Shown here: positions 1-35,699 of the stretch, one piece after another | How positions within the stretch are numbered: position 1 is the first letter of the stretch | Layout: every line of letters begins with the position of its first letter | NCBI RefSeq assembly: GCF_021389955.1 | Contig: NZ_CP089980.1 | Span: 5,513,001 to 5,577,000, forward strand | DNA: 64,000 nucleotides | DNA from: Fulvivirga maritima | GTDB taxonomy: Bacteria; Bacteroidota; Bacteroidia; Cytophagales; Cyclobacteriaceae | Reading direction: 5' to 3' | Program-made: the position numbers and the translations under genes | Notes under the pieces: model-generated | Seen by the model: the letters and a program-made list of their open reading frames with translations, nothing else | Databases searched by the model: none | What the model was told of the DNA's origin: nothing

Positions 1-1034
1 TTATACATCCATTTGCGCAGCTGAGGATATTCTACATAAGTATTGCTGGTTTCTTCAATAAGCACTTTGGTCTTACCTGTAGCAGCATTAACCCGCACTA
101 CCTGATACTTCTGATGACCTCTTTCATTAAAATCAAAAATAAAGCCTTTGCTATCTTCCATCCACTGGATGTGAGAAAGGTCAAATTGATTTTCAAAAGG
201 CTGACCATCAACAGCTATTTGCTTTAAAGTTTCAATATCAAATAGTGCAGGCTGCTTAATAGGTACTGCGTCTCCGGGCTTTAGGTATTCCCTTTTGTGC
301 AGCTTAGGTTGTAGTTGATCGTTTGGCGAAGATTCTATTAAATAGAAATACTTTTTCACGTTAGGACGAACCTGATACGTAGCTAATTTTTTAGAATCAG
401 GAGACCAGGCAAGGTAAGAAGAATAGAGATTACCTTCAGCTCCATCAAAACTTAATACTGTTTCTTTACCAGAAGCTTTATCTTTTACTACTACATTATA
501 GTTTTTGATAAAGGCAACCCACTTACCGTCAGGTGAAGTTACAGGATCGTTGCCCAATTCATCTCTGGCTTCTGCCCAGTAGCCCCAGTCAGGCCTTTCG
601 GGTAGTTTTTCTTTAGATAATGATTTATTTTTTAGTCCATAGGTCCATTTAAACCCATCGAGGTGGAATGAAAATGAGGTTAAATCATCTGAAAATTTCT
701 CATTTCTTAGGGGTAGTTTAAAAGGCTTAAAGTCTTTGCTTAAGCTATCATTAAGTTGGGCAGCCAGGTCTTCCTGATTAAGCGGCGTAGACGAGCTTTC
801 CTGCTCCATATCATATACCACATACTCATTACCTTCCTTCCTGTTTATTTTATACCAAAATAAAGAACCATTGAGCCATTCCGGCTCTATTCTGGTACCA
901 TAAGCCAGCTTTCCATAACCTGCTACCTCATCAGCATGCTTATAATCCTCACGAGTGGGCTGCGCTTGCAACCCACCCATAAGGAAACATAACAAGAGGC
1001 AAAATAAAAATGCTCTTTTCACTTTCACGTTCAT
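1..1034 (-). CDS. S9 family (DPP-IV-like) peptidase, N-terminal part, cut by window edge
   Basis: The frame is open from an ATG at 1034 to the window edge, giving about 344 residues. It starts with a signal peptide (MKRAFLF-like hydrophobic core ending LQAQ), so the protein is exported. The visible part is beta-propeller-like, with repeated motifs such as SPDGKWVAF and SPDSKKLATY, as in the N-terminal domain of prolyl oligopeptidase/DPP-IV family serine peptidases. The catalytic hydrolase domain would lie to the left of the window and cannot be checked. Its ATG overlaps the stop of the upstream GH127 gene by one base (TAATG), which indicates translational coupling in one operon. A peptidase co-transcribed with arabinofuranosidases suits a glycoprotein substrate. 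Confidence 0.8.
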   Translation of the reverse strand, partial: MNVKVKRAFLFCLLLCFLMGGLQAQPTREDYKHADEVAGYGKLAYGTRIEPEWLNGSLFWYKINRKEGNEYVVYDMEQESSSTPLNQEDLAAQLNDSLSKDFKPFKLPLRNEKFSDDLTSFSFHLDGFKWTYGLKNKSLSKEKLPERPDWGYWAEARDELGNDPVTSPDGKWVAFIKNYNVVVKDKASGKETVLSFDGAEGNLYSSYLAWSPDSKKLATYQVRPNVKKYFYLIESSPNDQLQPKLHKREYLKPGDAVPIKQPALFDIETLKQIAVDGQPFENQFDLSHIQWMEDSKGFIFDFNERGHQKYQVVRVNAATGKTKVLIEETSNTYVEYPQLRKWMY

Positions 1035-3475
1035 TAATCAACTATCCATTCATGAATACCGGCTGAGAATTTTTCAGGAAGCTGTATTTTAAGCTTCACA
1101 GCTGTAGCCGTAACCGGATCAAAAGAAACTGCACTCCAGTCATCTTTTACCACAGGATAGTCTGCTTTTATTGTTTTCCAATCTCCATTGCTGGTTTTGT
1201 ATTGCATTTCCCATGAAGCAGGAATTCTGCACTCACCGAAAGGCTCATCATCAAACCAGTATACTTTAGATGAAGATATAGTTTTAGTACCTTCAAAATC
1301 ATATTGTACCCACTCAGCTGTACCTTTTTTGGGCCACCAGTGATAGTATGGCCATTCACGGTCACCTGAGTTTTCTGGTAGCAACTGGTCGTTTAGCGCT
1401 ACCAACATTTTGTTTTCTCTGGAAGCACTCACTTTACTGGTACTTGCAATAGTAGGTGAAGGCAATGGTCTTACACTGCTTTCGTTAACAGGTAACCAAA
1501 CCATCATTTCACCTGCTCCACGGTTATTCCAGGTGTAATAAGGGATAAGTTCTATCTCTTGTTCCTCACTGTATTCAATACCGCCTTCAAGTTTAGCTTT
1601 GGCCGCTTTGGCTTTAGCTTTTACCACTACTACTCCACCTAATTTATCAGCTTCGTACGCACTAGTGAATTCTTGTTTCTCATCAAAAATAAGGTTAAGC
1701 ACTTTACCTCCTTCAGCATCAGGCCACTCAGCAGCATATACTATTGGCCCTCTTTGGATAGCCATCTTACCTTTATCAGCAGCTACACTATCGCTAGCTT
1801 CCACTATGCGCGGAGTCATATCAAAATCAATAGTTACTACATCTCCTTTTGCCCAGCTTTTATTCACTACAGCATAGCCATTATCCATTGTGAAATCTAC
1901 TTCCTCACCATTCACAGTAATGGAATATTTATCTTCATGACCATCAGCATAGTGATACAGATCTCCAGGGATAACATCATCATTAGCCCAGCCCGGAATA
2001 CGCATTTTTAAAGCAAACTCTTTTTCAGTAGCAGGATCAAGTTTAATGTTAACCTGCCCTTCCCAGGGGTATTTTGTTTCTTGCTCTACTTTTACACTTT
2101 CACCGCCAAGGTCAATATCAGCCGTGTTAGCCATATATAAATTCACATAAATAGAGTTAGGGCCTTTAGCGTAAACATAACCAGGTACTGAAGGTAGTGT
2201 ACGCGCTACGTTAGGAGGACAACAAGCAGTACCGAACCATGCACCTCTGTTATGCTGACCTAATGATTCCAACACATTTGGGTAGAAAAATCTATCTCCT
2301 GTAAGTGATACTCCAGAAAGGAAAGCATTATATAGCGTACGCTCCATCACATCTATATAACGAGCGTCACCATCATAAAGAAACATACGCTCGTTCCAGT
2401 TAATGTTACCTACTGAAGCACAAGTCTCACAATAAGCTGACATGTTAGGAAGCTTGTAAGCAGCGTCGAAGCCTTCATTACCTCCACCTGAACCAATACC
2501 ACCGGTAATGTATATTTTCTTATGTACAAGATCATCCCAAATAGCGTTGAGTGCTGTTAAGTAATCTTTTTCATCATAAAGCGTAGCGATATCCGCCATA
2601 GCAGAATACATGTAAGTAGCTCTTACAGCATGACCTACAGGCTCTCTTTGGTCGATCACTTTTTTGTGCGCCTGGCTATATTCTTCACCACCGGGGCCAC
2701 GTACATCTAGGAAGAACTTGGCTAAGTCTAAATATTCCTTTTTACCTGTAGCATGGTACATTTTCACCAAGCCCATTTCTACTACCTGATGGCCAGGGCC
2801 AAACTCTAGTTTTCCGGGGCCAAAATCTTTCACCAACAAATCAGCTGTTTTAGTGGCTATATCCAGAAGAGAAGAATTTCCTGTAGCAGCATAGTGAGCA
2901 GCGGCAGCCTCAAATAAGTGACCACAATCATATAGCTCATGGCTACCGTACCATCCTTTAGCAGCGGCAGTCCAACGGGTAGTATCAGCCCATGGGTGTG
3001 GGTGCTTAGGATCTATAGTACGGCTGGTATAAATATAACCATCGGGCTCCTGAGCTTTACCTATGTAATAAATTAAGGTATCAACACGAGCTTCTAACTG
3101 AGGGTCAGGATGGTTTTGTAATGAATAACTAGCCGCTTCTATAAGCTTGTAGATATCAGTATCATCAAAAGGCATTTGAGTCTGGTATTTACCTTCCATC
3201 AGTCCACCCGCAATTTTAAAATTATCAACCCTGCCAGTAGTATAGCATTGTTGAATGGCAATAGGTATAGTTACCTCACGGTTACGGTCTAGCTTCTCTG
3301 ACCAAAAAGTGTCAGTGATCTTTACTGATGTAAATGGCACATTAGTAATAGGACCTTCTTCTGACTCTTGCGTTTGCTCAGCCACCTTCTTATCACAAGA
3401 AGTGAGCAGCATTACGCAGCATAAAGCGATCAGCATTATCCTGGTTACTTTCATTTTTCTTAATCTCAAATTCAT
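1034..3475 (-). CDS. GH127 beta-L-arabinofuranosidase (HypBA1-like) lipoprotein with C-terminal carbohydrate-binding-like domain
   Basis: The 813-residue protein has a lipobox (LTSC, Cys27), so it is probably an outer-membrane lipoprotein. The GH127 core (about 45-650) carries the known active-site pattern. Glu334 (NEGF) lies 16 residues before Glu350 of CETC; with Cys352 and the pair Cys418-Cys419 (ACCPPN) this matches the acid/base Glu, the zinc ligands and the nucleophilic Cys of Bifidobacterium HypBA1. That enzyme releases arabinose from beta-arabino-oligosaccharides linked to hydroxyproline. The last 140 residues form a discoidin-like module (WVQYDF, SSKVYWFDD) that is also seen in the protein at 36126. 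The start could also be Met8 (ATG at 3454). It lies in an operon with GH43 upstream and an S9 peptidase downstream, overlapping the latter by one base. Confidence 0.9.
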   Translation of the reverse strand: MNLRLRKMKVTRIMLIALCCVMLLTSCDKKVAEQTQESEEGPITNVPFTSVKITDTFWSEKLDRNREVTIPIAIQQCYTTGRVDNFKIAGGLMEGKYQTQMPFDDTDIYKLIEAASYSLQNHPDPQLEARVDTLIYYIGKAQEPDGYIYTSRTIDPKHPHPWADTTRWTAAAKGWYGSHELYDCGHLFEAAAAHYAATGNSSLLDIATKTADLLVKDFGPGKLEFGPGHQVVEMGLVKMYHATGKKEYLDLAKFFLDVRGPGGEEYSQAHKKVIDQREPVGHAVRATYMYSAMADIATLYDEKDYLTALNAIWDDLVHKKIYITGGIGSGGGNEGFDAAYKLPNMSAYCETCASVGNINWNERMFLYDGDARYIDVMERTLYNAFLSGVSLTGDRFFYPNVLESLGQHNRGAWFGTACCPPNVARTLPSVPGYVYAKGPNSIYVNLYMANTADIDLGGESVKVEQETKYPWEGQVNIKLDPATEKEFALKMRIPGWANDDVIPGDLYHYADGHEDKYSITVNGEEVDFTMDNGYAVVNKSWAKGDVVTIDFDMTPRIVEASDSVAADKGKMAIQRGPIVYAAEWPDAEGGKVLNLIFDEKQEFTSAYEADKLGGVVVVKAKAKAAKAKLEGGIEYSEEQEIELIPYYTWNNRGAGEMMVWLPVNESSVRPLPSPTIASTSKVSASRENKMLVALNDQLLPENSGDREWPYYHWWPKKGTAEWVQYDFEGTKTISSSKVYWFDDEPFGECRIPASWEMQYKTSNGDWKTIKADYPVVKDDWSAVSFDPVTATAVKLKIQLPEKFSAGIHEWIVD

Positions 3476-3596: not shown

Positions 3597-6500
3597 CTAC
3601 TTTTGTTCTGATAATCTAAAATCATCAAACTCCACATACCCTTCATTATTAGAATAAGTAGCATGCCATAGACCTACCCACAATTTCTCGCCCTCAAAAT
3701 CATCTCTTTCTACCGGTGAGCCGGGCATCTCTGTCCACTCTTTGCCATCTTCACTGGTGCGTAAATGCAGCTGCTTGCCTGATTTCTGAATCTGTAGAAA
3801 ACGGTGCGCTTTCCACCCCAATAAGTTACCCTGCTGATAGCGCATATGTTGAGACTGATTAGTGAGCATGTTACCCTGATTGTATAATGGGAAAAAGCTC
3901 AGGCTTACCAAACTCCAGTTTGACTTCCCTTCTGCTTTGGGTAAAGCAACCATCAGTCCGCCATCATTATAAGCTACTGACTCATGATTAGCCAGGCCAG
4001 CATAATCTTTCACTTCTACCTCTACCACAAAATCACCCTGTACTTCTTTATAAATGAAAGCGCCATTTTTAAGCTGGCCGTCCCAGCCACCACCTACAGA
4101 TGCTAATTTTATGTTTCCGTCGGTTGTTTTTAGCTCTGTGGCACCATTATCTGTATTTCCGGGCAGCAAAGCGCCATCAAAGCCCAAAAAGTCATTTGAC
4201 TTCACTTCTTGCTCTTGATCAAAAGTTTGTAAAAACTCATTATAAGTACTTTTGTTGGTAGCCACTGAAACTTCATCAGAGGTGGCTATTATATTACCAT
4301 ACTGATCCTGCACCAGGTATTTGTATGTGTAAGAATGATCAGGTTGTAAAGAATGATCAATATATTCTGCTGATCGCTGCCACTGTGAATGTTTGTTTTC
4401 ACCACCAATAAACAGATATTTCACTGGCTGCCCTTCAAATGACTTTGCGACCATATGAGCTGCTACAGAATTCATAGCCTCAGGCTTTTGAGCAAATGAA
4501 GCTTTGGAACTGGTTTTATTAATTCCTTTTAAAGTTTGCTGCCACTGCGCTTGCACTTCAGCAGCAGTAAGAGATCCTTCAGTGAAAGTAAGTGATGCCA
4601 TTGTAAGGCTTCCCTTCCAGTACCAATGACCGGTAGAAAGTAGACCATGGTTCATCTTATCTAATATTTTGGCTTTACCTGGTTCGCCATCTACGTAAGT
4701 AGTGATATCAGCTCCTTTTTTAGTCAGCACATATTCATGCCATTTACCTTTATCATAAGCATTAAGAACTATGTGATAATCTCCCGTGGTTTGCACTTTA
4801 TTATCGGCTTTCCATGACCATAGCCCCTTTTTATTCACTACCAAAGCGAGCTTACCATCTACCACTTCTACCTGAGCCTGTTCCCCTGCCACAGTAAGCT
4901 TACCTGCTGCCTTTCCTTGATTAGGCCAGCTATCGAATTGATCATAGCCCAAACCTGCTGCAGAGAAGTAAACCGCTATTTTATCATTATCTCCTTCGGC
5001 TGTATAATGGCTTTTGATTTCATCATAGCTGAGCGCTTTATCATACATTTTTAAAGAAGCCAAAGCACCAGAGAAAGGCACTTCTTTATTAGCCGAATTC
5101 CCTACATGAATGTAACTGCCAGGCTCGACAAACAGCATTTTCTGTTCTTCACCATTTAGTACCCCATCAACGTACACCTTTTCCATGTAGCCATCGAAAG
5201 TAATAACGATGTGATGCCATTTTGATGCTTCAGGAGCTCCGCCATTGAAGCCCATATCAGCCCACTCCTGATGGCTCACCGCTCCGCCTTCAGGGTTACT
5301 GCCATACAAAACCCTGGAAGAAGTGAGCAGCCGTCCTTTCTGAGCAGCCCAATCTACCAGGCACTCGGCAGGAGCGATTTGTTCATTGTACACCCATGAT
5401 TCTACCGTAAAAGGATTATCACCAGTTAGGGTAATGAGTGTTATAAAATCAGATTTCAAAGATTGATGTCCATCAAAAACTAAGGCCTTTTTACCGGCTA
5501 CTAATTCCACTACCGGAGCACTGCCTTCCGCCTTAAAGGTGCCGTTTACTTCACCATTATTATCTAAAGCCTCAGTAAGGCTACCTAACTCCAGTTGATC
5601 CGCGTTTAATGAAACCACTAAACCTTTTGATTTTACAGAGGCCTTTGTCGGTTCTTTATAGGCAAGTTTACCATAGTAAGCTGCTTCTGAAGGAGCTAAC
5701 ATGCGATTAAACACCTTTAAGCTTACCAGTTTTTCATTGGTTTGTAAACGACCCGTTTCAAAATATGGTTTGAGTACCTTATACCATTTATTGTGTGTTG
5801 CCTGATTGATTTTTATCGATCCTTTCAAGCTTCCAAATGCATCTTTAGCAAAATGATTCCAGGTGAAATAGACATATTCCAGCTTGTCATCCTTCATAAA
5901 AGAAGCTACTAGTGTATAATCCATTTTAGGATTAGTTTTAGCAACCACAGGCACATTTCCTGTGATGCCTTTTTCTAAACTCACCCAATTATTCCCTGCT
6001 AAAACACCAGTCTCAGCACCAACTAACTGATATTCTCCTCCGTACATACCCCGGTTATTTTGCCAAACGGCACCATCAATATCTGCGGCTTGCAGGTTCA
6101 CGAGCATTTGTTCCGGGTCTTGCTCATATCCTTCATAGGCTCCAAAATCCCATAAAGCCAATGGGAAACCCTGCTTACCTACACCGGTGATGGTTAACTT
6201 CAGATAGCGAGCCTTCACCTCATTATAGTCCGTCATAGGGCTACCATCCTGAATGTTATTTCTTTTGTCAGCATATACTTGCCATGTCTTGCCATCAAGC
6301 GAATACTCTATGAGGTACTGAAAAAAATGAGTGGCATATTGAAAAGCAATGCGTGTTCTTTTAATGTCTTTTTCGCTTCCCAGATCTACCTCCAGAGTTG
6401 GGGTATAATCATCAGAAGCAGGCATCCATAAGGTGCCATAATTATTATCTACAGCATAAGCCGCTTGGAAATCTTCACTGTACTGAGATGAAGCTTTTAC

Positions 6501-7508
6501 TTTTTTCTGGTAAAGAAGGTTAGGAAACGGATTGGTGTCTTTACCCAATAACCCGATACCTTCATGAGTAGGAACAACTTTTTTAATTCTTCCTTCATCA
6601 TCAAACTCCAACTTATCGGCAGCTACCTGACGGTGAAAGCCATTACTGGAATGAGGATTATCATGACGATGATAAATGATATAATACTGATCACCCTCCT
6701 TCAATATAGAGTGGTGCCCAGGACCGTGGACAGAACCATCTGCATTAGTAGACAGAATGGGATTATTATCAGCAAAAGTGAAAGGCCCTGTAGGTGATTT
6801 GCTGGTAGCATACTGCACGCGGTAGGTACCATCATGGCAAGAGCCTGAAGAGTAAGTAAAATAATAAGTATCGCCTCTTTTAAACATAAAAGGCGCTTCA
6901 AAAAAATCTGTAGCCTGCGTATTAGGAATGATGCCTTTGCTCTCGAAGGACTTCATATCAGGATTAAACTTACCCCAACCTGCACCAAAGCCATCATAAA
7001 TACCCCAGGTACCCCAATATAAGTATCTGGAGCCGTCATCATCCAGAAAAGACTGTCCATCCAGGGTAATTACATTTTTAACAAAACGGTCAGGCACTAT
7101 AGGTTCATCATCTGGAGTAAGCCCTTTCCATGGGCCATAAGGTGTATCTGCCGCGCCACCATGCAGCTGCACTGGCTGACTGTAATACATGTAATACTGA
7201 TCATCTTTACCCAACCATACATCTGGCGCCCAGTATACTTCTGTGGTAGGCCAATTCATTTCTGCTTTGGTCCAGTTTACAAAGTCATCAGAATACCACA
7301 CTTGTGAAGGGCCCAAGCCCCAACCGGTACCATCAGTAGTAGCATAAATGAAATAGCGGCCATTGAATTTTTTAACAGTAGGATCTGCAAAATAGCCGGG
7401 TAATATAGGGTTGCCTGCTCCTGGTGAATTATGTTTAAGCTGCTGCGCCTGAAGTTTTAGACTGGCACCAGCTATTAGCAGGGCAAGACATAAGATTAGT
7501 CGATTCAT
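3597..7508 (-). CDS. GH43 family glycosidase with F5/8-type, LamG-like and C-terminal jelly-roll domains
   Basis: The protein has 1303 residues and a Sec signal peptide (cleavage near LQAQ). The N-terminal five-bladed propeller of GH43 is clear: Asp42 in FADPT (base), Asp150 in ITLDGQSF (pKa modulator) and Glu204 in FFEAPF (acid). Family members are alpha-L-arabinofuranosidases, arabinanases or xylosidases. Then come a discoidin-like module (about 335-465), two concanavalin-like LamG modules (about 630-830 and 840-1010), a fibronectin-like linker and a C-terminal domain (about 1110-1303) like that found after many GH43 catalytic domains. The size is far above a bare GH43 (about 320 residues), which suggests binding to insoluble or cell-wall material. 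It sits between two beta-L-arabinofuranosidase-type genes, so arabinose side chains are the likely target. The exact GH43 subfamily cannot be told by eye. Confidence 0.88.
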   Translation of the reverse strand: MNRLILCLALLIAGASLKLQAQQLKHNSPGAGNPILPGYFADPTVKKFNGRYFIYATTDGTGWGLGPSQVWYSDDFVNWTKAEMNWPTTEVYWAPDVWLGKDDQYYMYYSQPVQLHGGAADTPYGPWKGLTPDDEPIVPDRFVKNVITLDGQSFLDDDGSRYLYWGTWGIYDGFGAGWGKFNPDMKSFESKGIIPNTQATDFFEAPFMFKRGDTYYFTYSSGSCHDGTYRVQYATSKSPTGPFTFADNNPILSTNADGSVHGPGHHSILKEGDQYYIIYHRHDNPHSSNGFHRQVAADKLEFDDEGRIKKVVPTHEGIGLLGKDTNPFPNLLYQKKVKASSQYSEDFQAAYAVDNNYGTLWMPASDDYTPTLEVDLGSEKDIKRTRIAFQYATHFFQYLIEYSLDGKTWQVYADKRNNIQDGSPMTDYNEVKARYLKLTITGVGKQGFPLALWDFGAYEGYEQDPEQMLVNLQAADIDGAVWQNNRGMYGGEYQLVGAETGVLAGNNWVSLEKGITGNVPVVAKTNPKMDYTLVASFMKDDKLEYVYFTWNHFAKDAFGSLKGSIKINQATHNKWYKVLKPYFETGRLQTNEKLVSLKVFNRMLAPSEAAYYGKLAYKEPTKASVKSKGLVVSLNADQLELGSLTEALDNNGEVNGTFKAEGSAPVVELVAGKKALVFDGHQSLKSDFITLITLTGDNPFTVESWVYNEQIAPAECLVDWAAQKGRLLTSSRVLYGSNPEGGAVSHQEWADMGFNGGAPEASKWHHIVITFDGYMEKVYVDGVLNGEEQKMLFVEPGSYIHVGNSANKEVPFSGALASLKMYDKALSYDEIKSHYTAEGDNDKIAVYFSAAGLGYDQFDSWPNQGKAAGKLTVAGEQAQVEVVDGKLALVVNKKGLWSWKADNKVQTTGDYHIVLNAYDKGKWHEYVLTKKGADITTYVDGEPGKAKILDKMNHGLLSTGHWYWKGSLTMASLTFTEGSLTAAEVQAQWQQTLKGINKTSSKASFAQKPEAMNSVAAHMVAKSFEGQPVKYLFIGGENKHSQWQRSAEYIDHSLQPDHSYTYKYLVQDQYGNIIATSDEVSVATNKSTYNEFLQTFDQEQEVKSNDFLGFDGALLPGNTDNGATELKTTDGNIKLASVGGGWDGQLKNGAFIYKEVQGDFVVEVEVKDYAGLANHESVAYNDGGLMVALPKAEGKSNWSLVSLSFFPLYNQGNMLTNQSQHMRYQQGNLLGWKAHRFLQIQKSGKQLHLRTSEDGKEWTEMPGSPVERDDFEGEKLWVGLWHATYSNNEGYVEFDDFRLSEQK

Positions 7509-20807: not shown

Positions 20808-20817
20808 CGTATTTTAC

Positions 20818-22585: not shown

Positions 22586-22591
22586 TATTTT

Positions 22592-23893: not shown

Positions 23894-23927
23894 AGGGATT
23901 AAATCATTATTAGAAAAAATTTACATT

Positions 23928-24020: not shown

Positions 24021-24029
24021 CAATACCAA

Positions 24030-24095: not shown

Positions 24096-24172
24096 CGGTA
24101 CTCAATTGATAAAGGTACCCCATGCAAATGAGTCGAATATACAAATTCAGAGATCAGGAAAAACAATTAACG

Positions 24173-24670: not shown

Positions 24671-24987
24671 ATTAACTAATTCAATTGAGTCTGTTAAACT
24701 ACACCTATATCAAAAGCAATGATTATCTATTTATCAAAAATACCGTAAGCCATTACTGAATTAAATCCATGTATACCTCTATCGTGAATATTAATTCATA
24801 TGTCAAACAGAGCCATTGCTACTCAACTATTAAAAGGAGTATAGCTTAATCTGCATCCTTCCAATTTTTTATAAACTCAACACAGAACCGCCAGATAGTA
24901 ATACCTAAACTCAACAAAAAAACATTACTTCATAAATAGAGATACATCCACCATAATCCATTTTTATCTGGCGGTAATATATAAATC

Positions 24988-26232: not shown

Positions 26233-26260
26233 GATGAATATATAGATGTGTATTCAACAT

Positions 26261-26287
26261 AAAAAAACCACCTTGTCTCCAAGGTGG
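26261..26287 (-). terminator. Terminator of the metzincin gene
   Basis: The perfect stem CCACCTTG/CAAGGTGG (26268-26275 and 26280-26287) is followed on the minus strand by seven T residues (26267-26261). It lies 42 bases after the stop at 26329. Confidence 0.85.
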
Positions 26288-26328
26288 CTCCTAATCAATT
26301 GCACAAGTATTTATTAAAGATTAATTAT

Positions 26329-27354
26329 TTAGTTCCAAGGCCAGCTACCCCAAGCTTCGCAGTAGTTACCTTTATCGTTTTCGCCTAAGAAACTTCTATC
26401 TTCTCCTATGTAACTGGCATTCATAGTGTTCACTGGTTGGTAAACCAATTCACGCACGCCATTTTCATACATAGCTTGTAAGATACCGAAGTGTCCTAAA
26501 TTTAATGAATGACCAAATTCATGCAAAACTACAGATTCAATATCTATAGCTCCTGGAGTAACACCTTCAGACCAGGCGAAACCATCGTTAAACCAAATTT
26601 CAGCAAATGCTTTATCTGTTTTTCCTCTGGTTGTACTGGTGGGATTACCATCTTCATCTACAAAAGTAAATGAAAAGGTTACCCCTAAGATGTTCTCAGC
26701 TCCTAACAAAAGCTCAAATATGTAAGATGGTAAATAACCTACTACAGAAATATCTACATAAGGACCATTGTCTGGTAAACCAAAACCTAGGATCTGACTT
26801 GGGTTACCCATATCTAAACTATATGGTACCTCATCTATAGCTACTGTGGTACAATATCCATCATTCTCCCATTTATCAAACATAGCAGAGTAAATAGGCT
26901 CTACATCTATACTTCCGTTAGCCACGGCATAAGGAGTAAATGAAGACCAATCGATATCATCCAAATCCCCGTCACCATTCCAGTCACGGCGAGTATCTCC
27001 AGGCACCCAGCGAGAGGGTATAGTACTTTGAAATTGACTGTCAAGAGTAGTCACTGAATCATAACGATCTACATATCTATATAGACTCACTTCTTCCACT
27101 TTTATATTTCCTTCTTTAAAAACGGTTTCGTTCATCATTATTTTGATTTCTTCTTCATCAGAAATCCCACTTTGTCTTGCGTTTTTAGGATGTGCTGACC
27201 GGTAGTCTAATAATTTTTGAGGTATAGTCAGGCTCAGTTGATCCTCACTTTTTACCATTTCCTGATCAGTATCCTTTGCTGATTCCGGCTCCTGGCACGA
27301 TGCGAGTGCACATAATAATAGAGCCAATAAAATTAAGTTGTTTCTAGTTCTCAT
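26329..27354 (-). CDS. Lipoprotein metzincin-type metalloprotease
   Basis: The protein has 341 residues and a lipobox (ALASC, near residue 20). The zinc motif HEFGHSLNLGH (His278, Glu279, His282, His288) fits the metzincin pattern HExxHxxGxxH, with Asn in place of the Gly. NTMNAS about 30 residues later is the expected Met-turn. A loop DWNGDGDLDDIDW (about 122-135) looks like a calcium-binding EF-hand/dockerin loop. It is probably a cell-surface endopeptidase. It lies just upstream of the hydroxyproline operon's regulator, on the same strand, and has its own terminator. Possible substrates are collagen-like or other structural proteins. Confidence 0.8.
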   Translation of the reverse strand: MRTRNNLILLALLLCALASCQEPESAKDTDQEMVKSEDQLSLTIPQKLLDYRSAHPKNARQSGISDEEEIKIMMNETVFKEGNIKVEEVSLYRYVDRYDSVTTLDSQFQSTIPSRWVPGDTRRDWNGDGDLDDIDWSSFTPYAVANGSIDVEPIYSAMFDKWENDGYCTTVAIDEVPYSLDMGNPSQILGFGLPDNGPYVDISVVGYLPSYIFELLLGAENILGVTFSFTFVDEDGNPTSTTRGKTDKAFAEIWFNDGFAWSEGVTPGAIDIESVVLHEFGHSLNLGHFGILQAMYENGVRELVYQPVNTMNASYIGEDRSFLGENDKGNYCEAWGSWPWN

Positions 27355-27518: not shown

Positions 27519-28388
27519 TCACTTTTTATTGACCCCTTTTAAGGCGTTATGATACTTTAATGGGGAGTAACCTGTCATCTGTTTAAACTTTCTATTAAAA
27601 TAGGATAGGTTATTAAATCCAGACAAAAAGCAAATTTTAACAATGGTCATATCCTTGTTGAGCAGTAACCTACAGGCATGCCTTATTCTAATTTCATTGA
27701 GAAAATCGAAATACGTTTTTCGTGTTCTCTGTTTAAAAAATCTACAAAAAGCAGAAGGAACCATGTTGGCAATTTCGGCTACTTGCTCCAATGTTATCTT
27801 TTCGGCATAGTTCTCAAATGTAAATTGTATTACATCATTGAGTCTTTTACCATCATTTTCATCAATAGATTGTTTAATAATCTCCTGGTTGAGGAGCATC
27901 ATATTTTCTTCATCAGCCAGCATATCAATTATGCTAAGCACCTGTATGAGTCTTTCTAAACCTTTTACCTGTAATAATCTCTCTATACCTCTACCTACCT
28001 TTTCTTTCAGATCTCCTTTTAATTTTATGCCCTGCTTAGCCGCCACAAAAAGATCCTGCACCAGCTGATAGTTTAACATAGCATTATCAGGCATCAGCTC
28101 GTCAAGAAAAACATAAATTACATCTGCCTCTATAAGATCAGTGTTTTCATAAAATGATTCATCATTCCTAAACACATGAGGCACATTAGATCCTATTATA
28201 AAAACATCTCCTTCTTCAAATTCCCCTATATGACCTCCTATTACAGCAGTGCCAAAGCTCTTCCTAATAAGAGTCAGCTGCAGCTCAGGGTGCTGGTGTA
28301 AAATATGATATATATGGCTCTCCTGATCATGTTGCACCATGATCATTTCAGCATTGTTTCTAGGTATCTTAAAGGGTAGAACTTTCAT
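27519..28388 (-). CDS. AraC family transcriptional regulator, likely controls the hydroxyproline operon
   Basis: The protein has 289 residues. The N-terminal half is a cupin-like sensor (LTLIRKSFG, EEGDVFIIGSNVPH). The C-terminal 100 residues form the two helix-turn-helix motifs of AraC proteins (TLEQVAEIANM and VKICFLSGFNNLSYFNRKF). It is divergent from the 28541 operon across 152 bases, the usual layout for a local activator. The cupin pocket would bind a small ligand, plausibly hydroxyproline or a breakdown intermediate. Start ATG at 28388. Confidence 0.88.
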   Translation of the reverse strand: MKVLPFKIPRNNAEMIMVQHDQESHIYHILHQHPELQLTLIRKSFGTAVIGGHIGEFEEGDVFIIGSNVPHVFRNDESFYENTDLIEADVIYVFLDELMPDNAMLNYQLVQDLFVAAKQGIKLKGDLKEKVGRGIERLLQVKGLERLIQVLSIIDMLADEENMMLLNQEIIKQSIDENDGKRLNDVIQFTFENYAEKITLEQVAEIANMVPSAFCRFFKQRTRKTYFDFLNEIRIRHACRLLLNKDMTIVKICFLSGFNNLSYFNRKFKQMTGYSPLKYHNALKGVNKK

Positions 28389-28540: not shown

Positions 28541-29461
28541 ATGAAAGTTACATGGACAGGGATTTATCCTGCAATAACTACCAAGTTTACCGACAACGAC
28601 GAACTAGACTTACCTTTATTCGAAAAGAATCTTAAATTTCAACTAGAAGCAGGTATCGAAGGCTTGATCATAGGCGGAACTCTTGGAGAAGCCACTGCGC
28701 TTACTGATGAAGAAAAGAAAACGCTTATAAAATCTTCTCTGGAAACTGTAGGACACACCATACCTGTCCTTCTAAACATTGCGGAGCAAACTACAAAAGA
28801 AGCTATCCGTCAGGCGCAAATGGCCGAAGAGCACGGAGCACACGGGTTAATGTTACTCCCTCCTATGAGATATAAAGCTACTGATTATGAAACAGTAGAA
28901 TATTTCAAAGCTGTAGCTAATGCCACTTCACTGCCTATCATGCTTTATAACAACCCTGTTGATTATAAAATATTGATCACTTTAGATATGCTAGATGAGC
29001 TCAAAGAATGCAGCAATATTCAGGCAATCAAAGAATCAACCAGAGACATCACCAACATCACTCGTATGAGAAATAAATTTGGTGATAGGTTTAAAATATT
29101 AGGTGGAGTAGATACCCTGGCTTTGGAAGCACTACTTATGGGTGCTGACGGTTTAGTAGCTGGTCTTGTTTGCGCTTTCCCTGAAGAAACAGTAGCCATT
29201 TACAAACTAGCAAAAGCTGGTCGTATAGAAGAGGCTTTAGAGATATACAGATGGTTCATGCCACTTTCTGAGTTAGATATAGATGCTCAGTTGGTACAAA
29301 ATATTAAATTGGCAGAGGTATATACAGGCATAGGTTCTGAAAATGTAAGAGCTCCACGCCTTATACTAAGAGGTAAGCGTAGAGAAGAAGTGATCAAGGT
29401 AATAGAAGATAGCCTTGCTTGCAGACCTACCCTGCCTAATTACAAGAAAATAGAAATATAA
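28541..29461 (+). CDS. DapA/NAL-family lyase, probable 1-pyrroline-4-hydroxy-2-carboxylate deaminase
   Basis: The 306-residue TIM-barrel aldolase of the dihydrodipicolinate synthase family has Schiff-base Lys164 (QAIKES) and Tyr136 (IMLYNNP). The GGTLGEA phosphate/carboxylate-binding loop is at about 45-51. DapA itself would be expected in a lysine context. Here the gene is followed by a KGSA-type aldehyde dehydrogenase, a 4-hydroxyproline epimerase and a D-amino-acid oxidase, which is the known trans-4-hydroxy-L-proline pathway; in it this family deaminates pyrroline-4-hydroxy-2-carboxylate to 2-oxoglutarate semialdehyde. It is the first gene of the operon. Confidence 0.85.
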   Translation: MKVTWTGIYPAITTKFTDNDELDLPLFEKNLKFQLEAGIEGLIIGGTLGEATALTDEEKKTLIKSSLETVGHTIPVLLNIAEQTTKEAIRQAQMAEEHGAHGLMLLPPMRYKATDYETVEYFKAVANATSLPIMLYNNPVDYKILITLDMLDELKECSNIQAIKESTRDITNITRMRNKFGDRFKILGGVDTLALEALLMGADGLVAGLVCAFPEETVAIYKLAKAGRIEEALEIYRWFMPLSELDIDAQLVQNIKLAEVYTGIGSENVRAPRLILRGKRREEVIKVIEDSLACRPTLPNYKKIEI

Positions 29462-29477: not shown

Positions 29478-31061
29478 ATGCACGGAAAAAACAGAATAGG
29501 ATATAACCTTTTAGAGACCGAACTCGGCACTGTTAAAGCTTTTAGTCCTATCACTAAAGAATCCTTGCCTGAAAAATTCGATGTAGCCGGACAAGATGAA
29601 GTAAATGCGGCACTGGAGCAAGCCGAAAAGGCATTTGGTGCTTATAAATACGTCAGCGCAGCTAAGAAAGCTGATTTTCTTGATGCCATAGCTGATGAAA
29701 TATTAGCCCTTGGAGATGCGCTTATAGAAAGAGCCTGCCTCGAGTCTGCATTACCAGAAGGACGCATAAGAGGAGAAAGAGGGAGAACCATGGGGCAGCT
29801 TAAAATGTTTGCCACACTACTTAGAGACGGCTCTTGGGTAGAAGCCAGTATAGAGCCTGCTATGCCAGACAGGGAACCTTTACCTCGTGCAGACTTGAGA
29901 AAAATGCTTAGACCTGTAGGGCCAGTAGTAGTTTTTACTGCCAGTAACTTTCCATTGGCATTCTCTACTGCAGGTGGAGATACCTCTTCGGCGCTGGCCG
30001 CAGGAAACCCTGTGATCGTAAAAGCTCACGAATCTCATTTAGGTACTAACGAGATGGTTTCTGATGCCATAGCCCGAGCTGCAGAAAAAACAGGAATGCC
30101 TGACGGTGTTTTCAGTAGCCTTACAGGAAATGGATATGAAATAGGTAAGCAATTAGTGCAACACCCTAAAGCTAAATCTGTAGCCTTTACAGGTTCATTC
30201 AAAGGGGGTAAAGCGCTATATGACCTGGCTAACGAAAGAGAAAACCCCATTCCGGTATTTGCAGAAATGGGAAGCATCAACCCTGTTTTTGTAATGCCAG
30301 ATAAAGTAGCAGCTGATCCTGAAGGTTTAGCTAAAGCTACAGCGGGCTCTATTAACATGGGTGTAGGTCAGTTTTGTACTAATCCAGGCCTTATCATAGG
30401 TATTGAGTCAGATGCACTCAGCACTTACATTAGCACCCTAGCCAAAGAAACCGAAAGCATGCAAGCTACTGCTATGTTAAATAGCGGCATAGCTAAAGCT
30501 TATAAAGCTGGAGCCGAAAATGCCGGTTCTCAGAATGGAGTACAAGTATTAGCTAAAGGAGCTGAAGCAGAAGAAGGCCTGGAAGGGCAGTCTACTGTGG
30601 CCACCGTTTCGGCAGCTGACTTCTTGAAAAACCCTGAACTACAGCACGAAGTTTTCGGACCATTTTCATTAGTAGTAACCTGCGCTGATAGTGCTGAAGT
30701 AGAAAAAGTAATTGCTTCTTTATCAGGACAGCTTACCACTACCTTCTTAGCTACAGAGAAAGATGTGGCTGAGTTTGATCAAATTATTAAAGATGCCTCT
30801 GAACTATGTGGAAGACTTATCTTCAATAGCTTCCCTACTGGCGTAGAAGTGTGTCATAGTATGCAGCACGGTGGTCCGTACCCTGCGGCTACTGATTCTC
30901 GCTTTACCTCTGTAGGTACTGGAGCCATCAAAAGATTTGTAAGACCAGTTTGCTATCAGGATGCCCCTAAAAGCATTCTTCCTGAAGAGCTTCATGATGA
31001 TAATCCTCTTGATATATGGAGGTTAGTCAATGGCGCTTGGACTAAGGACAAAATAGCATGA
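29478..31061 (+). CDS. 2-oxoglutarate semialdehyde dehydrogenase (KGSADH-type ALDH)
   Basis: This 527-residue protein of the aldehyde dehydrogenase superfamily has catalytic Cys300 (GQFCTNPG), general-base Glu263 (FAEMGS) and an NAD-binding stretch (VAFTGSFKGG). Its length and motifs suit the KGSADH class that oxidises 2-oxoglutarate semialdehyde to 2-oxoglutarate in hydroxyproline and sugar-acid breakdown. It starts 16 bases after the deaminase gene. It would complete conversion of hydroxyproline to a TCA intermediate. A strong hairpin follows at 31083-31152. Confidence 0.88.
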   Translation: MHGKNRIGYNLLETELGTVKAFSPITKESLPEKFDVAGQDEVNAALEQAEKAFGAYKYVSAAKKADFLDAIADEILALGDALIERACLESALPEGRIRGERGRTMGQLKMFATLLRDGSWVEASIEPAMPDREPLPRADLRKMLRPVGPVVVFTASNFPLAFSTAGGDTSSALAAGNPVIVKAHESHLGTNEMVSDAIARAAEKTGMPDGVFSSLTGNGYEIGKQLVQHPKAKSVAFTGSFKGGKALYDLANERENPIPVFAEMGSINPVFVMPDKVAADPEGLAKATAGSINMGVGQFCTNPGLIIGIESDALSTYISTLAKETESMQATAMLNSGIAKAYKAGAENAGSQNGVQVLAKGAEAEEGLEGQSTVATVSAADFLKNPELQHEVFGPFSLVVTCADSAEVEKVIASLSGQLTTTFLATEKDVAEFDQIIKDASELCGRLIFNSFPTGVEVCHSMQHGGPYPAATDSRFTSVGTGAIKRFVRPVCYQDAPKSILPEELHDDNPLDIWRLVNGAWTKDKIA

Positions 31062-31184: not shown

Positions 31185-32187
31185 ATGGCAGTAAGTGAAT
31201 TCATCTGCATTGATGCTCATACCTGCGGCAACCCGGTAAGGGTGGTAAAAACAGGCGGCCCTCAGCTAGAGGGCTCTACTATGAGCGAAAAAAAGACAAC
31301 ATTTCCTGAAGGAATATGACTGGATAAGAAAAGGACTCATGTTTGAGCCAAGAGGCCATGATATGATGTCTGGAAGCATCCTCTACCCTCCTGCTGATCC
31401 TCAAAATGACTCAGGTGTATTGTTTATTGAAACCAGTGGCTGCCTGCCTATGTGTGGCCATGGCACTATTGGTACAGTAACCATAGCTATAGAACAAGGC
31501 CTTATTATACCTAAAACTCCTGGCAGACTGCGTTTAGAAACCCCCGCCGGATTAGTTTTGGTAGAATATCAGCAGACAGGAAAGAAGGTAGACTGGGTAA
31601 GACTTACCAATGTAAAATCATATCTGGCAGCACAAAACCTCACTATAGAAGCCCCAGACCTAGGCACACTAACCTTTGATGTAGCCTATGGTGGTAATTT
31701 TTATGCTATTGTAGATGAACAGGAAAATTTTTTAGGAGTACATAATTACGCAGCTGCAGAGCTCATACGCTGGAGTTTGGTAATCAGGAAAATGATCAAC
31801 GAAAAATACACTTTTGTTCATCCTGAAGACGAAACGATAAGAGGCCTATCACACATGCTCTGGACTGGTGCTCCCTTAGACGCTAAAAGTACAGCTCGTA
31901 ATGCTGTGTTTTATGGAGACAAGGCCATAGACAGATCACCATGTGGCACGGGCACCTCTGCCCGTATGTCACAGTGGTACGCTAAAGGCCTTCTTCAAAA
32001 AGGAGAAGAATTTATCCATGAAAGCTACATCGGCTCACAATTTATAGGAAGAATAGAAGAAGAGACCGAAATAGACGGCAAGCCAGCAATCATCCCCAGC
32101 ATACAAGGTTGGGCAAGAGTTACTGGCTTTAACACCATCCTTATAGATGATGATGATCCATACGCCTTTGGATTCCAGGTTATTTGA
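31185..32187 (+). pseudogene. 4-hydroxyproline 2-epimerase (proline racemase family) with +1 frameshift
   Basis: The family protein starts at ATG 31185 (FICIDAHTCGNPVRVV). The frame breaks at a run of seven A residues (31288-31294); six A residues would restore one 333-residue frame, the normal family length. With that correction the two catalytic cysteines are Cys90 (MCGHGT) and Cys253 (RSPCGTGTS), the Cys/Cys pair of active epimerases and racemases. The enzyme would convert trans-4-hydroxy-L-proline to cis-4-hydroxy-D-proline, the substrate of the next gene. All other residues look intact, so a consensus error or slippage at the A-run is as likely as true inactivation. As written, only the part from Met52 (31339) onward is readable. 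Confidence 0.85.
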
Positions 32188-32197
32188 TAAATAAGAA

Positions 32198-33448
32198 ATG
32201 AAAAAGAAAGTTGCCATAGTCGGAGCCGGTATGATCGGGCTCTGCAGCGCTTATTACTTGCGCAAAAAAGGTCATGAAGTAATAGTTATAGATGATCACG
32301 ATGGTTATGGAGGAGCTTCTGTAGGTAATGCAGGCTTCCTATGCCCTAGCCACGTAGTCCCTCTCGCCTCTCCGGGTATTATTACCCAGGGTATCAAATG
32401 GATGCTAAACGAAAAAAGTCCTTTCTACATTAAACCCAGGTTAAACAAAGAGCTGATCTCCTGGGGACTTAAATTTAAAAAGGCGGCTACAGCCGAAAAA
32501 GTAAAAACAGCGGCTCCTTTTCTACACCAGATTACTACTGCCAGTCAAAAATTAGCTGAACAGCTGCTGGAAGATGAAAAAATTGATGCTGGCTATAATA
32601 GAAATGGCCTGCTTATGCTGTGCCAGTCAGAAAAAGAGCTACACCATGAGCAAGAGGCAGCAGATATAGCCAAAGGTTTTGGCCAAAGTGCCGAGATACT
32701 TACCCCAGAAGAAGTGGCTAAGCTCAACCCGGGCCTGGACCTCAACATCTGTGGCGCGGTATATTTCCCTAACGATACTATGATTAATCCACACATCTTC
32801 CTGAAAGAATTTCAGAAAGTGCTAAAAGCTGACGGCGTGGAGTTTATGTTCAATACTAAAATAAAAGCTTTTGAGAAAGAAAATGGTGAAGTCACCGGAC
32901 TAGTCACCTCTTCTTCTACTATAAAAGCTGACGATTATGTTTTAGCTGCAGGCAGTGCAACCTCTCAGTTGTTAAGGTTACTGGGAGTGAGCCTGCCTAT
33001 GGTGGGTGGTAAAGGCTATAGCTTTACCGTTAATAATCCTCCTGCCACGCCTAAAGTACCAGCTATTCTGGCCGACGGAAAAGTGTCTATGTCACCAATG
33101 ATGGATGGCCTGCGTTTTTCTGGCACTATGGAAATCAATGATCTGAACAGCGCCATCAATCACAAAAGAGTGCAAGGTATAATAGATACAGTTACTTCAT
33201 TTTTGCCACAGTTTAAAAAGAGTAATTTTACTGATATTAAACCCTGGTCTGGCTTCAGGCCGTGCTCTCCTGATGGGCTGCCTTATGTGGGTAAATCTAA
33301 AAAGTTTAGTAACCTTACTGTGGCTGCAGGCCATGCCATGCTAGGCATCACTCTTGGGCCGGTTACTGGTGATATTGTAGCTAAAATCATCAATGAAGAG
33401 CCTAGTGACATGGATTTATCTTTACTGGCAGTAGACAGATATAACTAA
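32198..33448 (+). CDS. FAD-dependent D-amino-acid (cis-4-hydroxy-D-proline) oxidase/dehydrogenase
   Basis: This 416-residue protein of the DAO/DadA family starts with the Rossmann FAD motif VAIVGAGMIGL followed by VIVIDD, and ends with the family motif HAMLGITLGPVTG. The start lies ten bases after the epimerase stop. In hydroxyproline operons this enzyme oxidises cis-4-hydroxy-D-proline to the pyrroline substrate of the first gene product. General D-amino-acid dehydrogenase activity is the alternative, but the neighbours favour hydroxyproline. Confidence 0.88.
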   Translation: MKKKVAIVGAGMIGLCSAYYLRKKGHEVIVIDDHDGYGGASVGNAGFLCPSHVVPLASPGIITQGIKWMLNEKSPFYIKPRLNKELISWGLKFKKAATAEKVKTAAPFLHQITTASQKLAEQLLEDEKIDAGYNRNGLLMLCQSEKELHHEQEAADIAKGFGQSAEILTPEEVAKLNPGLDLNICGAVYFPNDTMINPHIFLKEFQKVLKADGVEFMFNTKIKAFEKENGEVTGLVTSSSTIKADDYVLAAGSATSQLLRLLGVSLPMVGGKGYSFTVNNPPATPKVPAILADGKVSMSPMMDGLRFSGTMEINDLNSAINHKRVQGIIDTVTSFLPQFKKSNFTDIKPWSGFRPCSPDGLPYVGKSKKFSNLTVAAGHAMLGITLGPVTGDIVAKIINEEPSDMDLSLLAVDRYN

Positions 33449-33476: not shown

Positions 33477-35699
33477 ATGATATATAGAGCCATTACTTTC
33501 ATCATTACCTGCTGCTTTCTTGTGGGGCAAGCACACGCACAGGATGACACGATCACCCTGGAAAAAATATTTTCAACAGCCGAATTTCGGTCTGATTATT
33601 CAGGGCAAAAAAGGTGGATAGATGAAGGTGATGGCTATACTATGCTTCAAAGAAATGAAGCCGGCACTGGCCTGGACATAGTAAAATATAATACGGCTAC
33701 GGGTGATCAAACTGTACTCATTAGTGCTGCTTCTTTAATACCTAAAGGTGCCAGTGAACCTCTGCGTATTGAAAACTACGAGTGGTCTCATGATAAATCA
33801 AAGTTGCTTATCTACACTAACTCCAAGAGAGTATGGAGGCAAAATACAAAAGGAGATTACTGGGTTAAAGATCTGGAAACCGGCGCTCTAAACCAACTAG
33901 GTAAGGACTTGCCTGCTTCTTCACTTATGTTCGCGAAATTTTCACCTGACGATAGCCAGGTAGCTTATGTTAGTAAGCACAATCTATACACAGAAACTGT
34001 GGCTAATAATGAAGTAACGCAGCTTACTTTTGATGGAACCGAGAAAATAATCAACGGTACTTTTGACTGGGCTTATGAAGAAGAATTTGGCTGTAGAGAT
34101 GGATTTAGATGGAGTCCTGACAGTAAAAAAATAGCCTATTGGCAACTAGACGCCAGCCCTATCAAAGACTTTTTAATGATCAACAATACTGATTCTTTAT
34201 ACTCTTATACCATTCCTATTCAATACCCTAAAGTAGGCATGGATAACTCCACTTGCAAAGTGGGTGTGCTTAGCCTTTCTGATAAAAAAACCACCTGGAT
34301 GAAGGTAGGTGAAGACGAAAGCAATAACTACATCCCGCGTATGTACTGGGCTGATAATTCTGACCAAATACTTATTCAGCGACTGAACAGAAAGCAAAAC
34401 ATTAATACCGTAATGATGTGTAACGCAGCCAGCGGAGCATCTGAGGTTATTTATACTGATAAAGATGACACTTGGGTAAACGTAGTGGACGATCTACTAT
34501 TCTTCAACAAAGGAAGAGATTTCACTTGGGTGAGTGAAAAAAATGGTTGGAACAGTGTTTACAAAGTCAGTAGAGATGGCAAAAAGGAGACTTTACTTAC
34601 TCCCGGCACTTTTGATGTTATCAATATTGAACTTATTGATACCAAAAATGGCTGGATTTACTACAAAGCTTCTCCTGATAATGCCACCCAGAAATACCTG
34701 TATAGAAATAAGATTTCTTCCAACAAAAAATTTGAAAGACTCACTCCTAAAAACCAGCCCGGCACACACAGCTATGACATTAGCCCCAATGGAAAATGGG
34801 CTTTTCATACTTATTCTAAAGCAGGCATGCCTCCTGTAACTAATTTAGTTTCCTTACCTGATCATAAACAGGTACGCATGATAGTAGAAAACAAGGACCT
34901 GAAAAATACGCTAGCCAAACTCAACATCTCAGAACAGCAGTTTTTCACCATTGAAAAGGAAGGCATTTCATTTGATTATTACATGATCACACCTCCTGAT
35001 TTTGACGAAAGCAAAAAATACCCCGTGCTATTCAATGTTTATGGAGAGCCTGCTGGCCAAACAGTACTTGATGCCTGGGGCGGCAGAAACTTCCTTTACC
35101 ATCAGATGCTAGCACAGCAAGGTTACATTGTAATGAGCATAGATAACCGAGGTACACCAGCACCAAAAGGTAGAGAGTGGAGAAAAAGCATATATGCTAA
35201 ACTGGGCGTAATTTCATCTAAAGACCAAGCCGATGTTACCAAACTGCTTATTGATAAATATTCGTTTATTGATAAAGACAGAATTGGCATCTGGGGCTGG
35301 AGTGGCGGCGGATCTATGACGCTCAATGCACTTTTCCGTTATCCTGAAATTTATAAAGCCGGCATCAGCGTAGCTCCTGTTGCGGACATTCATCTTTATG
35401 ACAATATTTATCAGGAAAGATATTGTGGATTGTTAACCGAAAAAGCTGAGGAATACATCCAGAGTTCACCAGTAAACTTCGCTAAAAACCTGGAAGGAAA
35501 GCTTTTATTGGTTCATGGTACAGGAGATGACAATGTTCATTATCAAAACTCAGAAGTGCTTATTAATAAACTCATTAAACAAAATAAAGTATTCTCTTTC
35601 ATGTCTTACCCTAACCGATCTCATGGCATCTATGAGGGGTATAATACTTCAAGACATCTCTATGAAACCATGTTTAGTTTTATAAAAAGTAATTTGTAA
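33477..35699 (+). CDS. Dipeptidyl peptidase IV (S9B), secreted
   Basis: The protein has 740 residues and a signal peptide ending at AHAQ. The N-terminal beta-propeller carries DWAYEEEFG, the Glu motif that binds the substrate N-terminus in DPP-IV. The C-terminal hydrolase has the triad Ser609 (WGWSGGGS), Asp684 (GTGDD) and His716 (NRSHG); the 32-residue Asp-His spacing is that of the family. It cleaves X-Pro (and X-Hyp) dipeptides. Being last in the hydroxyproline operon, 28 bases after the oxidase, it fits liberation of proline/hydroxyproline dipeptides from structural proteins. Confidence 0.92.
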   Translation: MIYRAITFIITCCFLVGQAHAQDDTITLEKIFSTAEFRSDYSGQKRWIDEGDGYTMLQRNEAGTGLDIVKYNTATGDQTVLISAASLIPKGASEPLRIENYEWSHDKSKLLIYTNSKRVWRQNTKGDYWVKDLETGALNQLGKDLPASSLMFAKFSPDDSQVAYVSKHNLYTETVANNEVTQLTFDGTEKIINGTFDWAYEEEFGCRDGFRWSPDSKKIAYWQLDASPIKDFLMINNTDSLYSYTIPIQYPKVGMDNSTCKVGVLSLSDKKTTWMKVGEDESNNYIPRMYWADNSDQILIQRLNRKQNINTVMMCNAASGASEVIYTDKDDTWVNVVDDLLFFNKGRDFTWVSEKNGWNSVYKVSRDGKKETLLTPGTFDVINIELIDTKNGWIYYKASPDNATQKYLYRNKISSNKKFERLTPKNQPGTHSYDISPNGKWAFHTYSKAGMPPVTNLVSLPDHKQVRMIVENKDLKNTLAKLNISEQQFFTIEKEGISFDYYMITPPDFDESKKYPVLFNVYGEPAGQTVLDAWGGRNFLYHQMLAQQGYIVMSIDNRGTPAPKGREWRKSIYAKLGVISSKDQADVTKLLIDKYSFIDKDRIGIWGWSGGGSMTLNALFRYPEIYKAGISVAPVADIHLYDNIYQERYCGLLTEKAEEYIQSSPVNFAKNLEGKLLLVHGTGDDNVHYQNSEVLINKLIKQNKVFSFMSYPNRSHGIYEGYNTSRHLYETMFSFIKSNL

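Follow-up and report, generated by a model that had tools for sequence, protein, structure and literature searches.

Extensins and algal hydroxyproline (Hyp)-rich glycoproteins are cross-linked wall scaffolds, and what is known of their bacterial breakdown is mostly the release of arabinose, by bifidobacteria and xanthomonads. Here we examine a stretch of 64,000 nucleotides from Fulvivirga maritima (contig NZ_CP089980.1, positions 5,513,001-5,577,000 of a 6.39-Mb single-contig genome; hereafter the window), in which genes for glycosidases, peptidases and the catabolism of trans-4-hydroxy-L-proline lie together in one block. Judged from its gene families and gene order, this block is probably a glycoprotein utilisation locus for Hyp-rich wall proteins carrying Hyp-O-arabinosides, of the extensin type. 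Extensin repeats carry alpha-galactose on serine and 1-5 beta- or alpha-linked arabinofuranose (Araf) residues on Hyp, according to excerpts of two papers (PMC5371791; PMC6085000).

In the excerpted description of the Bifidobacterium longum cluster, three enzymes of glycoside hydrolase (GH) families GH43, GH121 and GH127 are accompanied by an ABC importer of beta-Ara2 (PMC7263609). This HypAA/HypBA2/HypBA1 set resembles the Fulvivirga block in combining GH43 with beta-L-arabinofuranosidases for Hyp-linked arabinosides, and the E-T-C and C-C zinc-site motifs are kept. The block differs in possessing a GH146 enzyme, no recognised GH121, import of the SusC/SusD type, peptidases and Hyp catabolism; its GH127 also belongs to a different subgroup. 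XeHypAA, XeHypBA2 and XeHypBA1 of Xanthomonas euvesicatoria are also Hyp-arabinoside enzymes, one of which is labelled GH146 in an excerpt of PMC10850190. A prolyl oligopeptidase gene, reported to be frameshifted, adjoins them, and its authors propose a possible role for this peptidase in degrading Hyp-rich glycoproteins; the excerpted account mentions neither 'TonB' nor 'epimerase' (PMC6085000). For Latescibacteria, a prediction from genome content likewise reads GH127 as attacking extensin, and the excerpted text does not mention linked Hyp catabolism (PMC4454575). The standard trans-4-hydroxy-L-proline pathway comprises the same four enzyme families, which form one run in the window, but in F. 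maritima they are found near glycosidases, SusC/SusD genes and peptidases of the Pro/Hyp type. The first-pass annotation of the window knew of no described bacterial locus that joins the sugar, peptide and Hyp steps, and none was found in an open-access library, judged by titles, opening lines of abstracts and excerpts (subscription papers and preprints lie outside it).

A single locus is supported by Fulvivirga sediminis, in which the stretch running from DPP-IV through S9 is contiguous and colinear over 31 kb, in the order DPP-IV, HypOX, HypRE, HypDH, HypD, AraC, M10-like, M1, symporter, DUF885, hybrid two-component system (HTCS), GH146, GH43, GH127 and S9, the proteins being 79-97% identical. 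In the window, the minus strand read from right to left carries DUF5695, DUF885, HTCS, GH146-like, GH43, GH127 and S9 genes with gaps of at most 121 bases, save one of 460 next to the HTCS gene, and beyond the left edge follow the catalytic part of S9 and then a GH97 gene. The plus strand carries the symporter and M1 genes, a spacer, and then HypD-HypDH-HypRE-HypOX-DPP-IV, from which the AraC gene diverges. Family calls were made with Pfam and NCBIfam, and 30 window proteins were scanned with Pfam. These recovered the GH127, GH146, GH43, HTCS, DUF885, M1, DPP-IV, symporter and AraC genes that had been listed earlier, and in GH127 a PF07944 domain with the E-T-C and C-C zinc/nucleophile motifs. 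The DUF5695 gene had gone unmentioned. Of two secreted metalloproteases proposed for the locus, the M10-like lipoprotein was found inside it, with a Pfam match below the cut-off, and the second, the HExxH protein at 36126-38723, lies beyond position 35699, where the proposed locus ended.

The spacer separates the two halves of the block by 3.9 kb (22453-26328) and contains families of direct repeats. The F. sediminis block is without this repeat spacer and has just 795 bases at the matching place, which rules out the spacer as proof of two unrelated loci. The repeats (23209-26247) are intergenic and belong to imperfect direct-repeat families of 67-244 bases; the stretch is much shorter in F. 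sediminis.

The Hyp operon had been described as complete. Epimerase, oxidase, deaminase and dehydrogenase families are indeed together as one gene run, but the epimerase is frameshifted as sequenced. With 493 bits the epimerase exceeds the cut-off of the NCBIfam 4-hydroxyproline epimerase equivalog (376 bits). Because none of HypD, HypDH and HypOX exceeds an NCBIfam cut-off among the matches listed, these three are named from their families and from the genes that they commonly accompany in relatives.

The closest solved relatives of the GH127, GH43 and GH146 enzymes are chains 6ex6, 5msx and 5opj, respectively, all from Bacteroides thetaiotaomicron. We take 6ex6 to be BT3674, a GH127 arabinogalactan enzyme, 5msx to stem from the same gene set, and 5opj to be BT0349, a GH146; 8k7x and 8k7y are presumably GH146 chains too. 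B. thetaiotaomicron possesses a larger set of galactan-cleaving enzymes, and we know of no Hyp catabolism joined to its arabinogalactan set. The GH127 of the window scores 723 bits with 6ex6, 421 with 4qjy, 325 with 5mqo and 322 with HypBA1 (3wkw/3wre). In a tree made by a quick method it falls inside a large clade holding 6ex6, with HypBA1 outside on a long branch. The earlier term 'HypBA1-like' is thus appropriate at the family level but not as a statement of close kinship, and membership of a HypBA1 subgroup was rejected on bit scores and tree. The GH146-like enzyme gives 447, 208 and 192 bits with 5opj, 8k7x and 8k7y and at most 112 with GH127 chains. The GH97 to the left of the window matches the alpha-galactosidase chains 3a24 (561 bits) and 5e1q (558 bits) better than alpha-glucosidases (at most 239), which suggests an alpha-galactosidase-like enzyme that would fit extensin chemistry. 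The alpha-L-arabinofuranosidase domains found in three loci of relatives (L200, L202 and L204), in proteins that we take to be of the GH51 type, would fit that chemistry as well. In the HExxH protein at 36126-38723 an N-terminal stretch is approximately 29-39% identical to the C-terminal part of several GH127s, so that protease and glycosidase could bind the same wall material. AlphaFold models of this protein (mean predicted local distance difference test score 38.8, from 3 sequences) and of DUF5695 (34.3, from 2 sequences) were uninformative.

In Bacteroidota a polysaccharide utilisation locus is marked by a SusC/SusD pair adjoining glycosidases and a sensor. No SusC or SusD was detected among the 30 scanned window proteins, but a SusC/SusD pair occupies 5,489,513-5,494,178, some 19-23 kb to the left of the window. 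It represents in this genome an importer lineage found repeatedly next to Hyp genes in others, and after it comes a DUF6055 protein that has an HExxH motif. A second, different pair lies between the first pair and the window; in Ohtaekwangia koreensis (L147) relatives of both pairs adjoin Hyp genes. F. sediminis has a SusD-type gene with 80% identity to one left of the window, and SusC/SusD genes of this lineage stand beside GH127 or GH146 genes in L123, L125, L127, G049, G224 and others. DUF6055 proteins with HExxH, candidate metalloproteases, occur directly at the SusD gene in L008 (14442-16382) and L212 (4434-5885), both on the minus strand.

Co-inheritance of the two gene clusters had been proposed as a check, and besides the colinear block of F. 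sediminis we found Hyp genes near GH127 or GH146 in other families, although far from always. Parachryseolinea silvisoli (L123/L200) carries SusC-SusD-HypD-HypDH-HypRE-HypOX-GH127-GH146 on one strand, and Dawidia soli (L125/L201) has the same array with S9 inserted ahead of GH127. Then follow in both AraC, M1 and a 65% homologue of the protein at 36126-38723. After AraC, P. silvisoli has an alpha-L-arabinofuranosidase-domain protein (GH51 type) where Dawidia has an 897-aa gene; Chryseolinea lacunae and Pseudochryseolinea flava have GH51-type proteins too. Three genomes from two other families share the pattern. The first (G140) holds SusC, SusD, S9, AraC, GH127, M1, HypD, HypRE, HypOX and DPP-IV within 19 kb, with no HypDH seen there; Pontibacter sp. 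172403-2 (G160) adds a symporter, M24, DUF885, HypDH and a second GH127 to that set; and the third (G049) combines the Hyp operon with DPP-IV, S9, M1, GH43, SusC, SusD, two GH127, GH146 and a GH97-like protein. Near the Hyp operon of Flavobacterium limi are S9, GH146-like, DUF885, DUF5695, GH42, GH43, M24 and GH36 genes, and F. salmonis has S9, GH146-like, DUF885, DUF5695-like, GH43 and amino-acid permease genes with HypOX and HypRE. In Dyadobacter (g60) SusC/SusD, S9, M24, DUF885 and the Hyp operon are grouped, and the neighbourhoods retrieved show no GH127.

Some relatives have further peculiarities. One Dyadobacter locus (L104:11319-14840, minus strand) encodes a ThuA-DUF7133-copper-binding protein between S9 and SusC, and 16 of the 17 named Dyadobacter loci have an open reading frame (ORF) of 1167-1214 aa. 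Three Flavihumibacter loci (L173, L180, L199) have HypDH and HypOX, two of them also HypD, with no HypRE match within the fetched stretch; the genomes concerned have a second HypOX-type gene elsewhere. A member of the same family as the window (G225; L111/L112) has SusC/SusD genes of the lineage described above, DUF5695, AraC, HypD-like, DUF885, a LamG-GH146-type enzyme, S9 and an alpha-L-arabinofuranosidase-domain protein, its epimerase being on another contig.

Linkage was counted in two evenly drawn samples. The order sample comprised 241 genomes, with the epimerase in 63 and GH127 in 68; the distance counts exclude 8 epimerase rows (weak second copies) and 9 GH127 rows below 310 bits. A SusC cut of 735 bits, chosen after viewing the list, separated 20 close rows from 86 others. 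In genomes having the epimerase, close SusC rows lay within 20 kb of it in 8 of 17 cases, but none of the 48 other SusC rows did; five of the eight close rows belong to one genus (g60). For proximity to GH127 at the same distance the counts were 6/18 and 1/49. The phylum sample comprised 287 genomes, the F. maritima genome included, and all listed rows were used; its counts are lower bounds, few candidates having been scored per genome. Genomes with a match numbered 59 for the epimerase, 46 for GH127, 43 for GH146 and 25 for SusD, 10 of the SusD rows forming the close group at a cut of 535 bits that was set after viewing the list. In genomes with both, close SusD genes lay within 25 kb of the epimerase in six of seven and within 60 kb in all seven, other SusD rows in 0 of 5. 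A GH127 or GH146 gene lay at most 25 kb from close SusD genes in 6/9 cases and from other SusD rows in 0/9. Of the 31 genomes with both, 11 (11 of all 59) have GH127 or GH146 at most 25 kb from the epimerase, where random placing in 4.8 Mb would give 0.66. With the F. maritima genome excluded the numbers become 6/6 for close SusD within 25 kb of the epimerase and 10/30 for GH127/GH146. Together with the synteny, this linkage supports the earlier proposal that sugar, peptide and Hyp steps belong to one locus.

To these samples we add named loci, obtained by scanning species genomes with a SusD alignment. For the best 80 of 389 relatives, genes within approximately 10 kb were labelled by their best BLAST match of at least 120 bits to a reference set, taxa being labels and not a tree. 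All 80 loci have SusC, 36 have at least one Hyp gene, 22 have at least three, and 28 have GH127 or GH146; a Hyp gene and GH127/GH146 coincide in 12, in 8 of these with a peptidase or DUF885 as well. Distances between HypOX and PF07944 genes were taken in 40 of the 80 genomes, hand-picked after viewing neighbourhoods so that the rate is biased, the weakest PF07944 rows being left out. HypOX was present in 39, with PF07944 within 10 kb in at least 20 of 39 (0.5 expected) and within 30 kb in at least 29 of 39 (1.5 expected). Of the other 40 genomes 28 have HypOX, and the 12 without it are records of Bacteroidales, Bacteroides, Phocaeicola or unplaced Bacteroidota, and Mariniphaga. This would fit a locus that loses the oxidative step in anaerobes.

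From the gene families, the synteny and the phylum-wide linkage we infer substrates, order of steps and co-induction as follows. The HTCS would sense released glycan. Among surface or periplasmic glycosidases, GH43, or the GH51-type enzyme in relatives, would remove the alpha-linked (alpha-1,3) cap arabinose, after which GH127 would take off the beta-1,2 arabinoses and GH146 would cleave arabinose from Hyp. This last step is assigned to GH146 because XeHypBA1 and Bll4HypBA1, two GH146 enzymes that have been investigated, attack the Araf-beta-Hyp bond in the excerpted account (PMC10850190). GH97, whose nearest solved chains are alpha-galactosidases, perhaps removes alpha-galactose from serine. 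SusC/SusD would bring (glyco)peptides across the outer membrane, and the secreted metalloproteases, S9, DPP-IV, M1 and DUF885 would cut the Pro/Hyp-rich peptide. DPP-IV and S9 peptidases, like M24 enzymes of the aminopeptidase P type, are directed at Pro. The symporter would import amino acids, and the epimerase, oxidase, deaminase and dehydrogenase would convert Hyp to 2-oxoglutarate under the AraC regulator.

Several observations weigh against this reading. The GH127 is nearer to 6ex6 than to HypBA1. GH127s linked to Hyp genes do not form a single clade (9 label changes against a mean of 19.9 after shuffling, where 'linked' means a distance of up to approximately 30 kb, in some cases from partial neighbourhoods, and Zobellia sequences are left out), and therefore GH127 subgroup alone does not predict linkage. 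No Pfam match to GH121 (HypBA2) was found among the scanned proteins, no GH121 model having been run on the genome. In F. sediminis the block is without DUF5695, GH97 is not next to S9, the 80 kb around the block contain no match to the protein at 36126-38723, and the SusC/SusD pair of the same type is on a different contig. The window's epimerase is split over two frames and so is the S9 peptidase at the left edge, with its catalytic half outside the window; the F. sediminis orthologues are unbroken (333 and 743 aa), and from the sequence the two frameshifts could be either sequencing errors or recent losses. Linkage itself is partial: of 53 GH127 rows in the order sample, just 3 come within 20 kb of the epimerase and 6 within 60 kb; in the phylum sample 20 of the 31 genomes with both have epimerase and GH127/GH146 separated by over 25 kb or placed on separate contigs, and 28 of the 59 genomes with the epimerase lack a GH127/GH146 match at the chosen thresholds; and 28 of the 80 named loci have neither a Hyp gene nor GH127/GH146. 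Since Hyp operons often occur without GH127/GH146, the Hyp half must also serve other sources, for example free Hyp or collagen peptides.

The main rival target is arabinogalactan protein (AGP), which is also Hyp-rich; GH127 and GH43 would trim its side chains, with the peptide and Hyp steps unchanged. The nearest solved chains 6ex6 and 5msx, with their presumed arabinogalactan origin, speak for AGP, as do the GH42 and GH36 of the F. limi locus. However, there is no clear galactan-cleaving enzyme among the scanned window proteins, unless GH43 is one, and the recognised glycosidases of the G140, Dawidia and Parachryseolinea arrays all belong to arabinosidase families, several adjacent ORFs there being unscanned. 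We infer extensin as the target, and consider AGP unlikely though the first competitor to be reckoned with. Less probable still, and in our view rather doubtful, is that the block is really two adjacent loci of different function, one for pectic arabinan and one for collagen or peptides plus Hyp, which chance or shared ancestry has kept side by side. Each half does have its own regulator, repeats lie between the halves here, and the Hyp operon is often without GH127, none of the 17 named Dyadobacter loci having GH127 or GH146, a count that also belongs with the points against one locus. Yet the halves are contiguous in F. sediminis, their pairing recurs in other families, also as same-strand arrays, and linkage is far above random placing. 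That the sugar half serves red-algal use, with GH127 as a marine carrageenan anhydro-galactosidase, is highly improbable: Fulvivirga is a marine genus, and Zobellia GH127 members include such enzymes in the excerpted account (PMC5698469), but neither a sulfatase nor a carrageenase could be recognised in the scanned window proteins, a red-algal galactan does not match GH146 and Hyp catabolism, and GH127 lies within the 6ex6 clade (in a tree without Zobellia sequences).

Table 1. Position, strand and assignment of the genes of the proposed Hyp-rich glycoprotein locus, numbered from the first base of the window.
Feature	Position	Strand	Basis or remark
S9 prolyl-oligopeptidase-type peptidase, N-terminal (DPPIV_N) part	3-1034	-	Catalytic part outside the window (L007:18802-19674)
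GH127 beta-L-arabinofuranosidase-type lipoprotein, C-terminal F5/8C domain	1034-3475	-	E-T-C and C-C motifs
Multidomain GH43 with F5/8C and LamG; candidate alpha-L-arabinofuranosidase	3597-7508	-	Pfam
GH146-like beta-L-arabinofuranosidase-type enzyme (second PF07944 protein)	7585-9963	-	Solved relatives 5opj, 8k7x, 8k7y
HTCS, hybrid two-component sensor/regulator	10424-14452	-	Pfam; kept in F. sediminis
DUF885, putative peptidase	14498-16210	-	Pfam; homologues of 46-59% in many relatives' loci
DUF5695 protein	16227-19001	-	Distant members in Flavobacterium loci and G225; not in the F. sediminis block
Sodium:neurotransmitter-type (SNF) symporter, putative amino-acid uptake	19251-20807	+	Kept in F. 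sediminis
M1-type aminopeptidase	20800-22452	+	Pfam; homologues in other Hyp loci
M10-like HExxH lipoprotein	26329-27354	-	Pfam match slightly below cut-off
AraC-family regulator, divergent from the Hyp operon	27519-28388	-	Pfam
HypD, DHDPS-family deaminase	28541-29461	+	Family and context
HypDH, aldehyde dehydrogenase (2-oxoglutarate semialdehyde)	29478-31061	+	Family and context
HypRE, 4-hydroxyproline 2-epimerase, two frames (second ORF 31339-32187)	31185-32187	+	NCBIfam
HypOX, FAD-dependent D-hydroxyproline oxidase/dehydrogenase (DAO family)	32198-33448	+	Family and context
DPP-IV (DPPIV_N and S9)	33477-35699	+	Pfam
HExxH protein with Por secretion tail	36126-38723	-	65% homologues inside Chryseolinea-group loci

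Further to the right, 39118-40091 (plus strand) encode first a bacterial CdiA-CT RNase A domain protein and then an immunity protein of the CdiI type, a toxin-immunity pair of bacterial competition. An SdpA-like gene (43020-43559) stands between two others (42075-44498, plus strand); all three are 91-98% identical in F. sediminis and there adjoin DPP-IV. A Mutator-family transposase is encoded at 52061-53299 (plus strand).

It is somewhat better than an even guess that the block belongs to a Bacteroidota-wide locus type marked by one SusC/SusD lineage and serving the use of a whole glycoprotein, not of its glycan alone. Such a locus would import arabinosylated Hyp-rich peptides and unite within a single regulon the stripping of glycan, Pro/Hyp-directed proteolysis and the oxidation of Hyp, and in Bacteroidales and their like would persist without the oxidative Hyp half. 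This SusC/SusD lineage would then be a genomic marker for recyclers of Hyp-rich wall proteins in soil and sea, and the DUF885, DUF5695, DUF6055 and HExxH proteins would gain a substrate hypothesis. The question becomes testable in named culturable strains.

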